NCBI RefSeq assembly: GCF_001027745.1
Contig: NZ_LECU01000002.1
Span: 186,001-250,000, forward strand
DNA: 64,000 nucleotides
Source: Pedobacter sp. BMA
GTDB lineage: Bacteria; Bacteroidota; Bacteroidia; Sphingobacteriales; Sphingobacteriaceae
Reading direction: 5' to 3'
In this document: in pieces, positions 55,005 to 64,000 of the stretch
Layout of the letters: each line of letters begins with the position of its first letter
Position numbering within the stretch: the stretch's first letter is position 1
Notes under the pieces: generated by a model
Databases searched by the model: none
What the model was told of the DNA's origin: nothing
What the model saw: the letters and a program-made list of their open reading frames with translations, nothing else
Position numbers and translations under genes: made by a program

Positions 55005-56009
55005 TTAACTGAAAACCCCGGCAAACAACTTATTTGAATGAAGCTTAGCCTCGTGATCGTATATATGCGAAGTACTCATCACCTCATTCACACCATGCTG
55101 ATCAATAAAATCACTTAGTTGCTGCTTGATAGTTTTTGCGCTGCCAATGAACGAATAATGTAGCATCTGCATCACGGCTTCTTTTTCCATTTGATCCCAC
55201 TGGCTATCCAGGTGATCTATTGCAGGCTTTAATAGCTCACGTCTTCCGGTAATCACACCTAAAAACATGCGCTTAACCGAACTCGATAACCGTTCTGCTT
55301 CCGCATCTGTATCGGCCGCTACTACATTCACACAGGCAATAACATAGGGTTCCTGTATATAGATGGAAGGTTTAAAACGGCTTTTGTAAAGGGCTATAGC
55401 CTGCTCAAAATAGGTAGGCGCAAAATGACTCGCAAAGGCGTAAGGCAAGCCTTTTTCTGCGGCAAGCAAGGCGCTGTCAGTACTTGATCCTAACACCCAT
55501 ATCGGAATCTCCAACCCTTCACCGGGGATTGCCCGCACATTTGAGCGCGAATTGCCAGCAGAAAATAACTGTTGAAGTTTGTCGATATCCCGGGGAAAGC
55601 TGTGCACAGCATTAAAATTTTCACCCCTTATGGCCATGGCAGTAACCTGATCCGTGCCAGGTGCCCTGCCTAATCCTAAATCTATACGATTGGGATATAA
55701 GGATGCGAGCGTTCCAAATTGCTCGGCAACGATTAAGGGCGAATGGTTGGGTAACATAATCCCACCCGATCCTACCCGGATTCGACTGGTACCACCGGCA
55801 ACATAACCAATGAGGATAGGCGTTGCTGAGCTGGCAACTCCAGCCATGTTGTGATGCTCTGCGAACCAGTAACGTGTATAACCAAGGGATTCAGACTGCT
55901 GAGCCAGCTCCAGGCTCGTTTTAAAAGTATCAGCAGCAGTATATCCCTCTAAAACAGTAGCAAGATCAAGAACAGAATAAGGTATGTTTTTTAATGTAGT
56001 GTTTTCCAT
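55005..56009 (-). CDS. LLM class flavin-dependent oxidoreductase (MsnO8/YhbW-like)
   Basis: This 334-residue cytoplasmic protein is a bacterial-luciferase-like TIM barrel using reduced FMN. Family segments are '[20 protein letters not shown]', '[20 protein letters not shown]' (the conserved HHN), '[20 protein letters not shown]', 'GRAPGTDQ' and '[20 protein letters not shown]'. The closest group I recognise is E. coli YhbW and the MsnO8 family. Substrates of these are mostly unknown, and some oxidise aldehydes or sulfonates. It is a single gene with no flavin reductase adjoining. Confidence 0.9.
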
Positions 56010-56150
56010 AGTATGCGCAGGTATTAAAACCTACTCCGCAAAAATATCTTTTGATATCCTGGATACCACATTTCATTGCCACAAATGACCCTAAGGCAAC
56101 ATTAAAAGATTGTCATGACAAAACACGATAACTTCCACATCATTATATTA

Positions 56151-56984
56151 CTATCGTTTCGCAAAGTAATTGTTAAAGAATAACATTTGATAAGCAATAG
56201 CATTGCCCCAGTATTCCCAGGTATGACCTCCCGGCCTTACGATAAAATCATGCGCTACATTTCTATCAACCAGCTTGTTGTGCAGATCTACATTAACCTT
56301 ATAAAAGAAATCACTGTAACCGCAGTCAATAATAACCGCCAATTTATTTGGTGTAATTAAATGTGTCAGGTTGATCACCGTGTTCGCTTCCCATCGCTCC
56401 GGATGCTCGCTGTATTTACCTAAACGTTTCGCGATTTCCCAGTTCTCCGGAAAGGGCCTGATATCTACACCACCACTCATGCTCCCGCAGGCTCCAAAAA
56501 CATCCTGGTGCCTGAAACCCAGATATAAACCACCATGGCCGCCCATGCTCAAACCTGTAATCGCCCTACCGCTCCTGTCTTTTATAGTGGCATAATGACT
56601 ATCGATATATTCAACCAGTTCACCGGCTACATAGGTTTCATATTTGTAGGTCGGGTCTTCAGGGGCATCGAAATACCAGCTGGTTACCCCTCCATCCGGG
56701 CAAACCACAACCATATTGTAAAGATCAGCAAGCCGTTTTACAGTTTCCTTATCCGGCGTTTTGCTTACCCACTCAGAATACTTGCCTCCTGCGCCATGTA
56801 GCAGGTAAAGTGTAGGGAATTTTCGGTCCGTATTGTAGCCTGCAGGTTTAATTACCACAGCTTTAATATCTTTTTTCATGGCTTTGCTACGGGTAACTAC
56901 AGTATCTACCGTTGCTGCAAGCGCTATATTGCACCATACGAGTGCCAATAAACCCAATGTTCCTGATAACAGATTTCTTTTCAT
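56151..56984 (-). CDS. secreted esterase family (Esterase_D/antigen 85-like) hydrolase
   Basis: This is a 277-residue alpha/beta hydrolase. I use the ATG at 56984, which gives a clean signal peptide (LLSGTLGLLALVWCNIALAA), over an upstream start. The nucleophile elbow is 'TGLSMGGHGGLYLGFRH', the oxyanion strand 'PTLYLLHGAGGKYSEWVSKT', and the histidine in 'VRPGGHTWEYWGNAI'. Members include feruloyl/acetyl-xylan esterases and S-formylglutathione hydrolases. Export and Bacteroidota context favour a carbohydrate esterase. The gene lies 95 bases after the sulfatase gene on the same strand, with a hairpin between. Confidence 0.9.
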   Translation of the reverse strand: MKRNLLSGTLGLLALVWCNIALAATVDTVVTRSKAMKKDIKAVVIKPAGYNTDRKFPTLYLLHGAGGKYSEWVSKTPDKETVKRLADLYNMVVVCPDGGVTSWYFDAPEDPTYKYETYVAGELVEYIDSHYATIKDRSGRAITGLSMGGHGGLYLGFRHQDVFGACGSMSGGVDIRPFPENWEIAKRLGKYSEHPERWEANTVINLTHLITPNKLAVIIDCGYSDFFYKVNVDLHNKLVDRNVAHDFIVRPGGHTWEYWGNAIAYQMLFFNNYFAKR

Positions 56985-57026
56985 GGAATGTATAAGATGT
57001 TTGCTGCACAATATAAATAAAATGCC

Positions 57027-57060
57027 AAAAGGGAACGATATCAATCATTCCCTTTTTTTA
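57027..57060 (-). terminator. hairpin between sulfatase and esterase genes
   Basis: AAAAGGGAA (57027-57035) and TTCCCTTTT (57048-57056) are exact complements with a 12-base loop. On the minus strand the stem ends in a short T-stretch after the sulfatase stop. It is a terminator or attenuator before the esterase gene. Confidence 0.7.
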
Positions 57061-57078
57061 TTGTTTCCTTAAATAGCC

Positions 57079-58797
57079 TTATTTTGATTTTGCAGGTTTG
57101 GGAAATACCTGGTTGTTATTCGCCCAGTTTTTCCACAAAACCTCCAGTTCCTTTACTTTTTCAGGCAGTTGTTTTGCCAGGTCGTTTACCTCCGACTTGT
57201 CTTTCGACAAATCAAATAAATGCCAGGTACTGTCGTTGCTGAGTGAAACCAGTTTCCAGTTACCTGATCTGGCATATTGCGCACCAAAATGCTCATTGAA
57301 CAATACTTCGTGTCCTGCATTTTCTTTACCTTCAAAGGAGGGAACCAAGCTCACTCCGGTGGTAGGAATGATTTTATTACCCTTATAGCTCGATGGATAT
57401 TTCGCGCCGGCTAATTCCACAAAAGTTTTCATAAAATCCATCACATGGCCCCGCTGATCACTAAAGCTTCCTTTATTCCCTTTTATTCCTTTTGGCCAGA
57501 AAGCAATCATCGGTGTATGTATTCCACCTTCAAATGATTCAGCTTTAGCGTATTGATATGGTGTATTCGCTACACTGGCCCATATTTTTCCTATAGAGCT
57601 ATAGGTCGTTTGAGGCCCTGGCATAGCCTGTTTCTGCGTAGCGTAAATAATGGGAGAACCCCCACGGCTTTCACTGGGACGGTCAAAGCCTGGTCCGTAA
57701 GCAGCAGCGTTTTCCGGACTTGCGCCGTTATCAGAAAGGAAAATAATAATCGTGTTATCAAGTTTGCCTGTTTTACGAAGTGCATCAATGATTCTTCCGA
57801 TTCCCTGATCCATTCTGTCGATCATAGCAGCATGCACCGCCATCGCTTCTGCATCCCATACCCGATCGGGATTATCAGCCCAGGTAACTGTACGCCCTAA
57901 GGGTTTGGGTAATTTGGTGGTGTTCGAATCAATAAGCCCCAGCTTAACCATCTTTTTATAACGGGCTTCACGAATCAAATCCCATCCGGCTTTATAAGTA
58001 TCTTTATATTTCGCAATATCCTCGGGTTTAGCCTGCAAAGGCCAGTGGGGCGCATTTTGCGCTACGTACAAAAAGAATGGTCTATCTGTTTTTTTCCAGG
58101 AGTTGATATAGGCAACAGCGGTATCATTAATAGCGTCTGTTTGATAATAATCTTTGGGTACCGTTTTAACAGGCTTTGTGCCACTTACCAGACTAAAAGG
58201 ATCAAAGAAATCCACCACCCCCCAAATGGTACCGAAAAACTGATCGAAGCCCCTGCTTGTTGGATATTGGTTGATGGGTGAAAAATCGCCATAGTCCTTT
58301 TGATGATTTAGCCAGCTTAGCTGATCCTTGGGATTTTTCTGCACAATCGTATTACTCACATGCCATTTTCCCGACATAGCTGTATGATACCCCGCTGTTT
58401 TTAACACCTCGGCAAGGGTAACGGAGTTATCCGCTAACCTTCCTAAATAGCCAGGCTCATCTTCTGCCTCCGTCATCTTACCTATTCCAGCCTGTTGATT
58501 ATACAAACCAGTAAGCAATGATGCCCTTGTAGGACAACACCTCGATGTATTATAAAATTCCCGGTAACGCAGTCCGTTGTTGGCGAGATAATCCAGGTTT
58601 GGTGTATTAATTTCACCGCCATAACAGCCGGCATCCGAAAATCCCATGTCATCAGCAAGGATGACCACAATATTAGGCCGGCTGGCTTTAGCTTCTGTCT
58701 TCTGCTTTTTTGATTGCTGATCAAATGCACTCAGGAAAACAAGCGCTGAACCTGATACTGCTGCAAGGGTTAAAAAAAATAGCTTTGTTGATTTCAT
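57079..58797 (-). CDS. type I sulfatase (arylsulfatase family), exported
   Basis: Sulfatases cleave sulfate esters with a formylglycine made from Cys. From the ATG at 58797 (572 residues) an N-terminal hydrophobic segment (LFFLTLAAVSGSALVFLSAF) directs export. Metal-binding 'PNIVVILADDMGFSD' is followed by the modification site 'SRCCPTRASLLTG' (C-x-P-x-R, Cys87 from this start), 'AMSGKWHVS', 'APHWPLQAKPED' and 'IIIFLSDNGASPENAAAY'. The substrate may be a sulfated glycan or aryl sulfate. The maturation enzyme is not in the window. No glycosidase adjoins. Confidence 0.93.
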   Translation of the reverse strand: MKSTKLFFLTLAAVSGSALVFLSAFDQQSKKQKTEAKASRPNIVVILADDMGFSDAGCYGGEINTPNLDYLANNGLRYREFYNTSRCCPTRASLLTGLYNQQAGIGKMTEAEDEPGYLGRLADNSVTLAEVLKTAGYHTAMSGKWHVSNTIVQKNPKDQLSWLNHQKDYGDFSPINQYPTSRGFDQFFGTIWGVVDFFDPFSLVSGTKPVKTVPKDYYQTDAINDTAVAYINSWKKTDRPFFLYVAQNAPHWPLQAKPEDIAKYKDTYKAGWDLIREARYKKMVKLGLIDSNTTKLPKPLGRTVTWADNPDRVWDAEAMAVHAAMIDRMDQGIGRIIDALRKTGKLDNTIIIFLSDNGASPENAAAYGPGFDRPSESRGGSPIIYATQKQAMPGPQTTYSSIGKIWASVANTPYQYAKAESFEGGIHTPMIAFWPKGIKGNKGSFSDQRGHVMDFMKTFVELAGAKYPSSYKGNKIIPTTGVSLVPSFEGKENAGHEVLFNEHFGAQYARSGNWKLVSLSNDSTWHLFDLSKDKSEVNDLAKQLPEKVKELEVLWKNWANNNQVFPKPAKSK

Positions 58798-59011
58798 GCC
58801 AGAATCTATCATAATTTAACGCTAATCTAACTAAACCGTTTTAATAGCTCAAACTACAGCGAATAATCATCTCCGAATTTTCATCTTTACAAAGAAATAA
58901 TGTCGAACTATCCAACAGAATACCTATATAGCAAAGCAATTAACAAACCATTAAACCAATAAGAAACATTTCTAAAACTAAATCACCTTATTCTTCGTTT
59001 ATCCAACTATA

Positions 59012-59293: not shown

Positions 59294-59391
59294 TACTAAT
59301 ACATCCTCGCAATCAGTGGCTGGAACGCTACTGATCCATATGCACCTGCCCATCACCCTAAAAGGCTATAGCAGGAAAAATACGGTTTGGC

Positions 59392-59399
59392 TAGTTTTG
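59392..59399 (+). promoter_or_regulatory. -7 box unusually close to the glycosyltransferase start
   Basis: TAGTTTTG, a perfect TAnnTTTG, ends 5 bases before the ATG at 59405, the same sequence and spacing as at the PAP2 gene. No clear -33 element is seen. Confidence 0.3.
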
Positions 59400-59404
59400 T
59401 GACA

Positions 59405-60322
59405 ATGGCAATAACATCTATCGTTACCGTAAACTACAATCAACCCGAAGCCACCCTGGCTCTTTTAGCGTCCATTAAGCTTAATCTAAACCTTGAAAAT
59501 CTGGAGGTCATTATTGTTGATAATGGCAGTTTAATTGATTCAGGTGCCAGCTTCAAAGCATTTTTACCGCAAACAATCTATATCCGCTCCGAAGCTAACC
59601 TGGGCTTCGCCGGTGGTAACAACCTGGGTATCAAGGTCGCTTCAGGGGAATATATTTTAATGGTAAATAATGACACAGAAGTTGTAAAAGGAATGACGGA
59701 TGTGCTCATCAAAGAAATGGAGGCCAATCCCGAAATCGGAATTGTAACCCCTCTCATTTTATATTTCGATCAACCGGATACCATTCAGTATGCGGGTTAT
59801 ACCCCCATGAATTACACCACCTGCCGTAATAAAACCGAAGGCTTGATGGAAAAGAACACCGGTCAGTATATGGGGATGAGCAACGAGACCGCCTTTTGCC
59901 ATGGTGCTGCGATGATGTGCCGCAAAGCCGATATTATGGCCATCGGACTGATGCCCGAGATGTATTTCCTCTATTACGAAGAGCTCGACTGGTGTGAGAT
60001 GTTTAAGAAAGCAGGGAAAAAAATATGGTTTACCGGCAAAACACATATCTTCCATAAAGAATCCATCAGCGTGGGTCGCGAAAGTGCTTTGAAAACATAT
60101 TTTGTTACCCGTAACCGGATCCTTTTCATCAGAAGAAATGCTAACCTGTTTAATCAAATTGCTTTTGCCTTTTATTTTACCGGCATCGCCATCCCCAAAC
60201 AAATGATCATTTACATACTTAAAAAAAGAACAGATTTAATCCCTTACCTACGCAGGGCCCTAACCTGGAATATCACTCAGGCGAAAGACAGTCTCAACCT
60301 GGGCTTCAATAGAGTGGCATAA
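59405..60322 (+). CDS. family 2 glycosyltransferase, rhamnosyltransferase-like
   Basis: This is a 305-residue GT-A fold enzyme. The opening 'MAITSIVTVNYNQPEATLAL' supports the ATG at 59405 over one 18 bases upstream. Donor-binding 'VIIVDNGS' is followed by 'EANLGFAGGNNLGIKVASGE' and the NDTE metal motif in 'YILMVNNDTEVVKGM'. Acceptor-side segments are 'CHGAAMMCRKADIMAIG' and 'FLYYEELDWCEMFKKAGKKI', the pattern of dTDP-rhamnosyl and related transferases. A C-terminal hydrophobic stretch may touch the membrane. It precedes a second GT2 by 44 bases. Confidence 0.92.
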   Translation: MAITSIVTVNYNQPEATLALLASIKLNLNLENLEVIIVDNGSLIDSGASFKAFLPQTIYIRSEANLGFAGGNNLGIKVASGEYILMVNNDTEVVKGMTDVLIKEMEANPEIGIVTPLILYFDQPDTIQYAGYTPMNYTTCRNKTEGLMEKNTGQYMGMSNETAFCHGAAMMCRKADIMAIGLMPEMYFLYYEELDWCEMFKKAGKKIWFTGKTHIFHKESISVGRESALKTYFVTRNRILFIRRNANLFNQIAFAFYFTGIAIPKQMIIYILKKRTDLIPYLRRALTWNITQAKDSLNLGFNRVA

Positions 60323-60366: not shown

Positions 60367-61530
60367 ATGATCACGCTATTCTGGCTTTCCCTTGCCATCG
60401 TATTCTACACTTTCCTGGGTTATGGCCTGTTGCTTTATATTTTAATCAGGCTAAAACGGGTATTCAGCAAACCTGTCCGGCATGTATTAAATACACTTCC
60501 AACAGTTACTTTGCTGGTTGCTGCATGGAATGAGGAGGATATGATTGAACAGAAAATCAATAATACCCTTGCCCTCGATTATCCCGCTGACCGCTTCCAG
60601 ATCATTTTTATATCCGACGGTTCTACCGACAGGACTCAGGAATATATCCAGCCATTCAAGCAAATTGTTTCCATGCACATTGATGAAAGGAACGGCAAAA
60701 TGGCGGCAATTAAAAGGGCCATCCCGGCAGTTACAGGAGAGATCATTGTATTTTCCGACGCCAATACTTTGTTAAATGAGCAGGCCATAAAAGAACTGGT
60801 GAAACACTATCAGAATAAAAAAGTAGGCGCCGTTGCAGGTGAAAAACGAATCCTGGTAGACGCCCAAGCCGATGCCAGTTCTGCCGGAGAAGGGTTTTAC
60901 TGGAAATATGAGTCGAAGTTGAAAACATGGGATTACGAACTGTACTCTAACGTAGGTGCCGCCGGCGAACTGTTTAGCATCCGAACAGCCTTGTATCAGC
61001 CTGTTGAAACCGATACCATTATTGATGACCATATGATTGCGATGAGAATTGCCGAACAAGGCTACATCATCGCCTATGAGCCGAATGCCTATGCCTCCGA
61101 AACTGCATCAGCCAACACCAGAGAAGAACTAAAGCGTAAAATTCGGATTGCTGCAGGCGGTATTCAATCGATCTTCAGGCTTAAAAAATCTGCAAATCCA
61201 TTCAACCATCCCATACTAACTTTTCAATACCTGTCACACCGGGTACTCCGCTGGACGGTTACACCATTCCTCATTATTCTTGCCTTCATACTTAATATTG
61301 CACTGGTTGCCACCACAAATAATAATGTTTATACCGTATTGCTCATCGCCCAAATATTCTTTTACAGCGCGGCCTTCATCGGTTTAATCTTTGAAAGAAG
61401 GAACATTAAAATCAAATCGTTTTTTGTCCCCTACTATTTCTGTGTGATGAATTATGCCGTGATCGCCGGAATCGGCCGATACATCAAAAAGAACCAAAGC
61501 GCAGCCTGGGAAAGATCACTCAGAAAATAA
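60367..61530 (+). CDS. family 2 glycosyltransferase, membrane-bound processive type
   Basis: This 387-residue protein has an N-terminal membrane helix (FWLSLAIVFYTFLGYGLLLY), a GT2 catalytic core, and two or three C-terminal helices (TPFLIILAFILNIALVATTN; VYTVLLIAQIFFYSAAFIGL). Donor-site residues are in 'LLVAAWNEEDMIEQKI' and 'IIFISDGSTDRTQEYI'. The DxN motif is in 'VFSDANTLLNEQAIKEL', and the later acidic motif is in 'TDTIIDDHMIAMRIAEQGY'. It resembles hyaluronan/cellulose-synthase-like GT2 enzymes and probably builds a surface polysaccharide or glycolipid. It is the last gene before the assembly-line gene. Confidence 0.9.
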   Translation: MITLFWLSLAIVFYTFLGYGLLLYILIRLKRVFSKPVRHVLNTLPTVTLLVAAWNEEDMIEQKINNTLALDYPADRFQIIFISDGSTDRTQEYIQPFKQIVSMHIDERNGKMAAIKRAIPAVTGEIIVFSDANTLLNEQAIKELVKHYQNKKVGAVAGEKRILVDAQADASSAGEGFYWKYESKLKTWDYELYSNVGAAGELFSIRTALYQPVETDTIIDDHMIAMRIAEQGYIIAYEPNAYASETASANTREELKRKIRIAAGGIQSIFRLKKSANPFNHPILTFQYLSHRVLRWTVTPFLIILAFILNIALVATTNNNVYTVLLIAQIFFYSAAFIGLIFERRNIKIKSFFVPYYFCVMNYAVIAGIGRYIKKNQSAAWERSLRK

Positions 61531-61904: not shown

Positions 61905-64000
61905 ATGCTTAATAATACCCTCATATCCCGTTTTTCCGAGCACTGTAGTGTAAGCCCACATAGCATTGCTCTCGAACTTAATAATGAATCGTTAACCTAT
62001 CAGGAACTCGACAACCAGTCAAATCAACTTGCAAACTTATTGGTTAACACAGGAGTAAAACCAAATAACCATATCCCAATACTTCTAAACCGGTCATTTG
62101 AAATGATCATAGCCATTTTGGCCACAATGAAATGCGGGGCAACTTACATCCCTATCGATCCTTCTTCCCCTTCGCAGAGAATCAATTATATATTGAATGA
62201 TCTGCAGGCTGATTTTTTAATTACCGAAGGAGCAAACGAACTGAATTTTGCTGGTACCACTATCAAAGCCGACGATCCGCAACTTTCAATACAATCCTGT
62301 GAAAAAATTCAAATCCAGGGAGCACACTGTGATATCTGTTACATCATATATACCTCTGGTTCCACCGGCAAACCAAAAGGTGTAATGATCGGTGATCAGG
62401 CCGTCGGTCACTTCATCAACAGCCAAAGTGAATACTATGGAATTGGGAATGATGACCGGATACTGCTTTTTTCCAGCTTCGCCTTCGATGCATCAGTTGA
62501 ACAAATCTTTCTGGCTTTAACTACAGGTGCATCTTTAATATTAATACCTGAAGAATATTTAATAGACGTTAAACGGTTCACACAATATGTTCAGGATAAA
62601 AAAGTAACCCATCTCGATGTCACTCCTGGGTTTCTCGACAACCTGAATCCCGATCACTTCAACAACCTCAAACGGATCGTTGTAGGTGGAGACACCTGCC
62701 CAAAAAGTCTTTACCTCAAATGGCAGGCAAAGGGGACATTTTACAACGCCTACGGGCCCACTGAAGCAACAGTAACCGCAACCCTCTTCAAATGTAGTCC
62801 ACACCAGTTGTCGTTGTCTTCAGGTTTGCCCATTGGGAAACCAGTAAACGGAACAGGGGTATATATTCTCGACGAAACAAAAAGACAAGTAGCAAATGGC
62901 GTTGCTGGCGAAATTTATTTGAGCGGAGAACATCTCGCCAAGGGCTACCTCAACAATCCTGAACTTACAGACGAACGCTTTGCCATGATAGATATATCCG
63001 GCCCGCAACGATTGTATAAAACCGGTGATCTCGGCCGGCTTCTTGCAAATGGAAACATAGAATTCTTAGGGCGGATAGATAGCCAGGTTAAGATAAGGGG
63101 ATACCGGGTGGAGCTGGGCGAAATCGAAACCGCATTGAGCACACTCCCCAACATCAGCCAGTCTGTTGTGGTGGTCAAAAGTCACGACCTAGGCGACAAG
63201 CAATTAGTAGCCTTTGTTGTTGCTGCGAATTCATTTTCCAAAGAAGCTGCTGAAGCAGCACTTTCTGCAAACCTTCCCGAATTCATGATCCCAAAAATAT
63301 GGGTTCAGCTTAACCACATGCCATTAACAGTAAACGGAAAAATCGATAGGAATGCATTGGAAGTTCCCGACTACGCCGACTTACTGCACACCCCTTATGC
63401 ACAACCTAAAACAAAACTCGAAACTAAAATAGCCGCCATCTGGAAACAGGTACTCGATGTAAAACGAGTGGGACTAAACGACAACTTTTTTGATCTCGGA
63501 GGAAATTCACTCCTGTCGCAAAAACTGATGCTGGCCATGCAGGAACAAAATATTGTGCTGCCTATCGCAAAACTGTATCAATATCCTACAATAGCGGGAT
63601 TAGCAAAATACCTGGATAAATCTGCCGAAAAAAACACCAATACAAAACGCCATCAGGCACAAGCCGGAAGAAATATAGCGGTGGTTGGCCTGGCAGGTCG
63701 CTTTCCCGGTGCAGATACTGTCGGCGAGTTATGGGACCTGCTTTGCAAAGGAAAAGAAACCACCACATTCTTTACCAGCGGTGAGCTGGATGTAAACATA
63801 CCCGACAATATCAAAAACGACGACCTTTATGTAAAGGCCCGGGGAATCATTAACGATACCATGATGTTCGATCCCGATTTCTTCGGCATCAATAAAAAGC
63901 TTGCTGAACTCATGGATCCTCAGCAAAGGATATTTCTCGAGATTGCATTCGAGCTACTGGAGAAAACTGGTCATTTGCAAAAAACCGATCAATATAAAAC
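61905..64000 (+). CDS. hybrid NRPS/PKS, N-terminal part: adenylation, carrier, ketosynthase start
   Basis: This gene runs off the window end after 698 codons. It begins directly with an adenylation domain (about 15-500). Core motifs are YTSGSTGKPKG (Tyr149), FDASV (Asp195), NAYGPTEA, 'YKTGDL', 'GRIDSQVKIRGYRVELGEIE' and NGKIDR (Lys479). A carrier domain follows with its pantetheine serine at Ser535 (FFDLGGNSL). From about residue 590 a ketosynthase starts (IAVVGLAGRFPGADTVGELW; FDPDFFGI; LMDPQQRIFLEIAFELLE). The ketosynthase cysteine and all later domains lie outside. No condensation domain precedes, so this is a loading module that activates an amino acid and passes it to polyketide extension. 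The product is unknown. Confidence 0.93.
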   Translation, partial: MLNNTLISRFSEHCSVSPHSIALELNNESLTYQELDNQSNQLANLLVNTGVKPNNHIPILLNRSFEMIIAILATMKCGATYIPIDPSSPSQRINYILNDLQADFLITEGANELNFAGTTIKADDPQLSIQSCEKIQIQGAHCDICYIIYTSGSTGKPKGVMIGDQAVGHFINSQSEYYGIGNDDRILLFSSFAFDASVEQIFLALTTGASLILIPEEYLIDVKRFTQYVQDKKVTHLDVTPGFLDNLNPDHFNNLKRIVVGGDTCPKSLYLKWQAKGTFYNAYGPTEATVTATLFKCSPHQLSLSSGLPIGKPVNGTGVYILDETKRQVANGVAGEIYLSGEHLAKGYLNNPELTDERFAMIDISGPQRLYKTGDLGRLLANGNIEFLGRIDSQVKIRGYRVELGEIETALSTLPNISQSVVVVKSHDLGDKQLVAFVVAANSFSKEAAEAALSANLPEFMIPKIWVQLNHMPLTVNGKIDRNALEVPDYADLLHTPYAQPKTKLETKIAAIWKQVLDVKRVGLNDNFFDLGGNSLLSQKLMLAMQEQNIVLPIAKLYQYPTIAGLAKYLDKSAEKNTNTKRHQAQAGRNIAVVGLAGRFPGADTVGELWDLLCKGKETTTFFTSGELDVNIPDNIKNDDLYVKARGIINDTMMFDPDFFGINKKLAELMDPQQRIFLEIAFELLEKTGHLQKTDQYK

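Follow-up and report, generated by a model that had tools for sequence, protein, structure and literature searches.

At the right-hand end of the window (the whole 64,000-nucleotide stretch of Pedobacter sp. BMA DNA that was analysed) lies the 5' part of a hybrid NRPS/PKS gene, referred to here as gene 1, preceded by two GT2 glycosyltransferase genes (Table 1). The window shows 698 residues of gene 1 with the frame still open at its end, and on the contig the stop is reached at 2162 residues (C2:247905-254393, window-equivalent 61905-68393). The Pfam domain order of the complete protein is adenylation (A), carrier (T), ketosynthase (KS), acyltransferase (AT), carrier and class-III aminotransferase (AMT), or A-T-KS-AT-T-AMT. 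The A domain consists of an AMP-binding region (residues 10-349, 1.5e-74) and a C-terminal subdomain (406-479), and Pfam finds no condensation (C) domain ahead of it. The KS starts at residue 589 (ketoacyl-synt, 1.5e-63) and runs to 963 plus an extension, its catalytic Cys760, His896 and His935 lying beyond the window end. The AT (1110-1383) carries the motifs GHSVGE and HAFH, the latter being the malonyl-type motif; it is followed by the second carrier (GFDSL) and by the AMT (1711-2070), with its PLP lysine, Lys1940, within YGKVVGAG. The E-values of these domains are far past chance level, and the closest PDB structure to the AMT is that of the mycosubtilin synthase MycA (374 bits, 1.1e-110). 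An A domain, carrier Ser535 and the start of a KS in one frame, with no leading C domain, had been read from the translation in an earlier note, and Pfam confirms this arrangement. That it forms a loading module passing an aminoacyl unit to a PKS is supported by the finding of A-T and then KS-AT-T in the same polypeptide, which is the standard NRPS/PKS logic for such a module.

Table 1. Features of the locus that lie within the window.
Feature	Position in window	Strand	Basis or remark
GT2 glycosyltransferase, rhamnosyltransferase-like (c2)	59387..60322	+	44 bp before c4
GT2 glycosyltransferase, PgaC/cellulose-synthase-like (c4)	60367..61530	+	374 bp upstream of gene 1
Gene 1, 5' part, hybrid NRPS/PKS	61905..64000	+	ORF, Pfam domains, active-site motifs
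Adenylation domain, aa 10-479, pocket code DAEDVGAVTK	61932..63341	+	Pfam; code via PheA core
First carrier domain (PP-binding), aa 508-570, Ser535	63426..63614	+	Pfam, motif
Ketosynthase start, aa 589 onward	63669..64000	+	Pfam, motif

The remainder of the pathway had been expected beyond the window, and extension to the right with domain calling located it there: besides the rest of gene 1 with its AT and integrated AMT, a gene ending in a thioesterase (TE) and a phosphopantetheinyl transferase (PPTase) gene were found. Gene 2 starts 16 bp after gene 1 and encodes a C-A-T-TE protein of 1347 residues with the motifs HHIICDG (C domain), GGNSL (third carrier) and GYSMGG (TE); the PPTase gene, which carries GIDVE and WxxKEAxxK and whose start position is approximate, comes after gene 2 and overlaps it. 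The joining of A and T to KS-AT-T in one polypeptide is that of a cis-AT type I hybrid, and an ACP followed in cis by a class-III AMT with its PLP lysine is that of a beta-aminating, MycA-type enzyme. The catalytic residues looked for were all found (KS Cys/His/His, AT Ser, carrier Ser, C HHxxxDG, TE Ser). Within the genome, the C domain of gene 2 is the single match to the condensation model, and of six matches to the KS model five are in frames of 393-430 residues, that in gene 1 being the only one in a modular-size frame. A decayed or inactive assembly line, at which the cutting of gene 1 by the window edge is the sole hint, is highly improbable and is refuted at the sequence level: an early stop and a KS lacking its Cys or His residues were both checked for and are absent, the frames of 2162 and 1347 residues are open with their motifs in place, and almost every one of the 112 matching family genomes has an open frame of about 2160-2270 residues. 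The assignment as an intact cis-AT hybrid NRPS/PKS line of two proteins with its own PPTase is solid on domain content, and the enzymology assigned in this way, which is of a known kind, is strongly supported.

By NRPS/PKS logic, the first A domain would load an amino acid X, the KS would extend X by one malonyl unit and the AMT would convert the beta-keto group into an amino group. The C domain would join the resulting beta,gamma-diamino acyl chain to a second, glycine-like amino acid, and the TE would release the product of the own-locus line. The predicted product is X plus malonate, beta-aminated, and then a glycine-like residue. The adenylation codes were extracted with a PheA core. The second A code, DILQIGMIYK, is presumed to be glycine-like, and DILQ begins 49 of the 77 gene-2-type A cores in the best 80 named loci. 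No firm substrate can be assigned from the code meanings to the first A code (Table 1), and gene-1 codes vary among these loci: DVQFMAQV-K, presumably proline-like, occurs in 23 of 77 (28 of 77 with close variants), and other codes are taken to resemble those for Ser or Asp or have no assignment. In one locus (L080:11746-16980) Pfam finds the second A domain interrupted by a methyltransferase domain, which makes N-methylglycine possible there; further gene-2 proteins are of similar length (about 1740 residues), the insertion being shown by Pfam for L080 alone. In Parapedobacter soli (L113:5147-18436) there are tandem A-T-KS-AT-T-AMT genes whose first A codes differ (DFWNIGMVHK and DVWHLSLIDK, the second presumably serine-like), which suggests diversification of the loading unit.

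Gene 1 belongs to a co-directional run spanning window-equivalent 59387-79868, in which the gap ahead of gene 1 is the widest. The order of the run is GT2, GT2, NRPS/PKS, NRPS, PPTase, UDP-glucose dehydrogenase (UGD), an SDR of NDP-sugar type, a WaaS/CpsH-type glycosyltransferase (GT), a Wzx-type Polysacc_synt flippase, GT2 and GT2. Genes facing the opposite way encode a group-1 GT, a GT2, Wzy_C, a Wzz-type protein, an outer-membrane OEP protein and a bacterial sugar transferase. With Pfam matches to Bac_transf, Wzy_C, Wzz, GTs, the Polysacc_synt flippase and OEP, the own locus is by its predicted content a Wzx/Wzy-type exopolysaccharide (EPS) locus. Upstream, on the minus strand and facing away from the EPS run, LLM-like flavin oxidoreductase, esterase-like and sulfatase-like genes were seen by eye at 55005-58812.

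In 43 of the 47 own-genus carriers the PgaC-like GT2 gene, c4, is no more than 15 kb from gene 1, in one of two arrangements: c2, c4 and the NRPS in the same direction, or the NRPS facing c4-c2. Since 229 of 399 family genomes carry c4 (E<=1e-50) and only 112 carry the line, c4 was rejected as its exclusive partner. In 4 of 7 c4 loci from line-free genomes there is a c2-c4-UGD EPS operon with an empty c4-UGD interval, and alignment of carriers with cassette-free relatives gives a jump of about 12.6-12.7 kb on the carrier side against 0.08-0.19 kb on the cassette-free side in 3 of 3 aligned pairs. Given that cassette-free EPS operons align in this way, the line and PPTase, together with a cupin-8 protein in those carriers, form an optional EPS-locus cassette, and given that EPS loci are complete without it, the cassette is not needed for EPS. 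In two of the other three c4 loci from line-free genomes, PPTase-like genes of 41-42% identity lie beside the GT pair (L236:7697-8410 and L237:10792-11487) and are possible remnants of a lost cassette.

The ACP-AMT part of gene 1 is matched in 112 of 399 genomes of the family sample (E<=1e-60) and in 18 of 395 genomes of the phylum sample (E<=1e-120). Of the six weakest family matches, one is a shortened copy (G339), one is a second copy (G003) and the remaining four are other AMT lines, three of which were read; in G345 such a line is the single match. Five of these phylum genomes (G434, G637, G517, G628, G646) have weaker matches only and were compared as other AMT lines. The named loci are the best 80 of at least 597 relatives from a scan of species genomes and not a random sample; 71 are from Bacteroidota, with hosts that include Pedobacter, Mucilaginibacter, Parapedobacter, Hymenobacter, Spirosoma and relatives, Flavobacteriaceae and Chitinophagaceae, and nine are from Xanthomonadales. 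The order A-T-KS-AT-T-AMT was read in 75 of the 80 by simple ORF picking, L152 and L153 being recovered later, and a C-A...T-TE protein is also present in 65. At least 80% of the protein is covered in 46 plasmid records, and 13 of 25 listed plasmid loci were examined. In Aliiroseovarius the own-locus order is fused in one protein, A-T-KS-AT-T-AMT-C-A-T-TE; in Rhizobiaceae and Loktanella the order is A(-T) / KS-AT-T-AMT-C-A-T / C-T-TE, with the first gene or the terminal TE unrecognised in some; and the three Variovorax and most Xanthomonadales lines end C-A-T-C-(A)-T without a recognised TE, with the exception of a Pseudoxanthomonas locus (L158) in which TE matches are present. Agrobacterium vitis H23 was rejected as a family member, its match being scattered across several genes of a cluster annotated as siderophore-type. 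Judged by these matches, the line is not peculiar to this genome and is one of a family widespread in Bacteroidota and Proteobacteria.

Association with EPS genes was scored with profile markers (OPX, Wzc, sugar transferase (PGT), Wzx and Wzy; seeds checked partly by Pfam), for which a looser marker scan was dropped (any marker 42/80 against 4/20 controls; core 21/80 against 2/20). Of the 80 named loci, whose flanks reach mostly about 5 kb past the genes, 27 have core markers: 18 of the 71 from Bacteroidota, four of which are shorter than 15 kb in total length among the 71, and all nine from Xanthomonadales. Core markers also occur in 9 of 13 plasmid loci (a raw 10 of 13 minus L202, with the non-colinear A. 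vitis locus counted in the 13) and in 1 of 6 further phylum loci. As controls, 3 of 20 random 20-kb stretches from own-family carrier genomes have core markers, and EPS markers occur in 0 of 9 other AMT synthetase loci, where large genes leave short flanks; L217 and L220, two of these nine with the same initial A-T-KS-AT-T-AMT order, have no EPS neighbours. Two 'Wzc' hits were rejected: that in L202 is annotated as a chromosome-partitioning ATPase, the locus being counted as without EPS in the tree labels, and one in L208 sits at MinD. Deposited annotation gives EPS genes for the Variovorax VAI-C, two Loktanella, Rhizobium SL42, Rhizobium CCGE531 and Aliiroseovarius plasmids, three unannotated Rhizobiaceae plasmid records are assigned to EPS by markers alone, and the plasmid loci of Variovorax WDL1, RA8 and Spirosoma linguale have no EPS genes.

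In the order to which Dyella jiangningensis belongs, 200 evenly sampled genomes gave 24 matches, of which the 19 at E<=1e-244 were used and five weaker ones excluded. Core EPS genes lie within about 10 kb of the two genes in all 19 (for two of them, the downstream side alone was fetched), and where both sides were fetched, 12 of 17 have a sugar transferase upstream and a GT2, a deacetylase and Wzy close downstream; a TE was seen in none of the 19 second genes. The PF02397 sugar transferase has 25 matches in these 19 genomes, at one or two copies per genome; 18 of the genomes have a copy no further than about 20 kb from the line, and in the remaining one (G869) the line sits close to a contig end and the PF02397 match is on another contig. 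In the own genus, 35 of 47 carriers have a sugar transferase within 50 kb of the line, where copy number and genome size predict about 2.3; only 9 of 47 have one within 25 kb. Given that the sequences within each order are related, these counts are not independent.

A FastTree phylogeny of 104 KS-AMT stretches unites these lines in a single clade, which comprises alphaproteobacterial, Xanthomonadales-plus-Variovorax and Bacteroidota groups; five of the seven other AMT lines included fall outside the clade, and L217 and L220 are at its base. The deep branching order is of limited reliability because of long branches and uneven composition. Bacterial groups mostly stay together in the tree. The EPS label switches at least 16 times, indicating that neighbours have been gained or lost repeatedly.

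The genomic company of the line suggests that it belongs to EPS biosynthesis, and the reading preferred here, with a probability of about 0.5, is that it makes a beta-amino-acid-containing EPS substituent. The line would be an optional cassette added to an otherwise complete Wzx/Wzy-type locus, and its product would presumably be attached to the polymer, most likely by an amide or ester link to the sugar repeat unit; no transferase or acceptor was found for the putative substituent. For the Xanthomonadales and Variovorax relatives, mostly without a recognised TE, release by hydrolysis would give way to transfer onto an acceptor by a separate enzyme. The EPS role is supported by the recurrence of this company in distant bacteria, the tight linkage in the Dyella order and the place of the cassette in the operon. 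Flavobacterial copies and basal lines without EPS genes count against it, as do cassette-free EPS loci and the TE. In place of EPS genes, many Flavobacteriaceae copies are flanked by a gene for a methyltransferase, a cupin-8 protein or a CAAX-protease-like protein. Such copies, with their possible tailoring enzymes, raise the possibility that the product of the line is a small molecule secreted in free form, namely an X-beta-amino-acyl-glycine peptide or its lactam or cyclic form, which would serve in signalling, metal binding or antagonism, and that the EPS neighbourhood arises from both being used in biofilms and co-regulated. This is consistent with the TE that ends the own-locus and Aliiroseovarius lines and accompanies most named loci, and which in Bacteroidota could simply release a free molecule, with the methyltransferase domain in L080, and with a first A domain that is as variable as in diversifying natural products. 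However, the EPS setting recurs in four bacterial groups, the tightest EPS linkage is found in the Dyella order, where the second genes show no TE (that of L158 does), and no dedicated exporter or resistance gene was recognised among the scanned or eye-read own-locus neighbours besides the EPS flippase and the OEP-type protein; a free product is considered less likely than the preferred reading.

That the same GT pair adjoins the line in two arrangements in the own genus, that all 19 Dyella-order lines are linked to EPS genes with a layout shared by most of them, and that none of the other AMT synthetases lies in an EPS locus are difficult to reconcile with mere hitch-hiking, in which variable EPS loci collect inserts and the cassette is functionally unrelated to the polysaccharide. 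Such an origin would fit a discrete cassette that is present or absent at one site in relatives, copies carried on plasmids, one of them (Spirosoma linguale) near copper genes and without the second gene, and the many switches of neighbours on the tree; the same tree nevertheless groups mostly by bacterial group, and hitch-hiking is considered unlikely. The preferred reading, a substituent of EPS, extends to the tentative proposal, held at slightly less than even odds, that a dedicated line in the EPS operon equips a widespread class of EPS with an NRPS/PKS substituent composed of an amino acid, a beta-amino unit derived from malonate, and glycine. If this reading is true, the variable first A domain (Pro-, Ser- and Asp-like codes and others) would give strain-specific surface chemistry.

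Among known systems, gene 1 resembles MycA of mycosubtilin/iturin synthesis, in which KS-AT-T is followed by an integrated class-III AMT for a beta-amino acyl chain. The starter of MycA is a fatty acid, supplied through an acyl ligase; gene 1, in contrast, has an NRPS A domain for amino acid loading, and a single further residue is added before the line ends. Microcystin McyE and other AMT-bearing hybrids likewise have the AMT inside a PKS/NRPS line, and we know of none in EPS loci. The first A domain of gene 1 also matches the AMP ligase of exosortase-A (XrtA) loci (TIGR03098), and relatives of exosortase-A hydrolases 1 and 2 (TIGR03100/3101) follow the NRPS/PPTase genes in Variovorax VAI-C, all below the NCBI cut-offs. 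Exosortase-A systems make EPS; to our knowledge no NRPS/PKS line has been placed in their loci. PKS-like genes such as RkpA occur among the surface polysaccharide genes of rhizobial K-antigen loci, and the O-antigen of Flavobacterium psychrophilum is substituted with a dihydroxyhexanoyl, polyketide-like group; we are aware of no amino acid loading, AMT or C-A-T module in either system.

An NRPS/PKS cluster is normally taken to produce a free natural product, and an EPS locus to produce sugars. Genome surveys give NRPS-PKS hybrids as 12% (PMC12181424) and hybrids as 17% (PMC10609062) of Pedobacter clusters, and NRPS-PKS hybrids as 6.68% in Flavobacteriaceae, where some groups are exclusive to genera such as Winogradskyella (PMC10734526). 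Neither the line nor an EPS setting is described in the portions available of these three or of PMC9248904 and PMC12074574. In searches of the open-licence literature, no title or abstract start pointed to the line or to an NRPS product on EPS. The enzyme kind itself is known, and no earlier report of an EPS role for such a line was found. Were the preferred reading true, it would mean a new biosynthetic junction in EPS loci of Bacteroidota and Alpha-, Beta- and Gammaproteobacteria, an unrecognised route by which bacteria decorate polysaccharides, and polysaccharides with positively charged beta-amino groups, and it would account for a group of product-less 'hybrid' clusters in genome surveys.

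Several smaller observations concern the neighbours of relatives. In Spirosoma/Fibrella, three loci have gene 1 without an adjoining C-A-T-TE gene (L202:13941-20768, L139:4919-11764, L090:5003-11818); L202 is the S. linguale plasmid pSLIN02, on which copper-resistance genes are annotated some kb downstream. Thioredoxin-, CydA/CydB (cytochrome bd)- and heme-protein-like genes were seen by eye, not in every locus, in the flanks of five Winogradskyella loci (L137, L138, L142, L146, L148) and may be plain inherited gene order. A cupin-8/JmjC-like protein (cluster N4, Pfam on one representative), a candidate tailoring hydroxylase, adjoins the line in 14 of the 80 named loci from Bacteroidota and Dyella, including L079, L081, L086, L087, L093, L097, L102 and L154. 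TIGR04325-family methyltransferases are annotated near six lines in Variovorax, Rhizobium and Loktanella (L200, L201, L203, L205, L206, L207).
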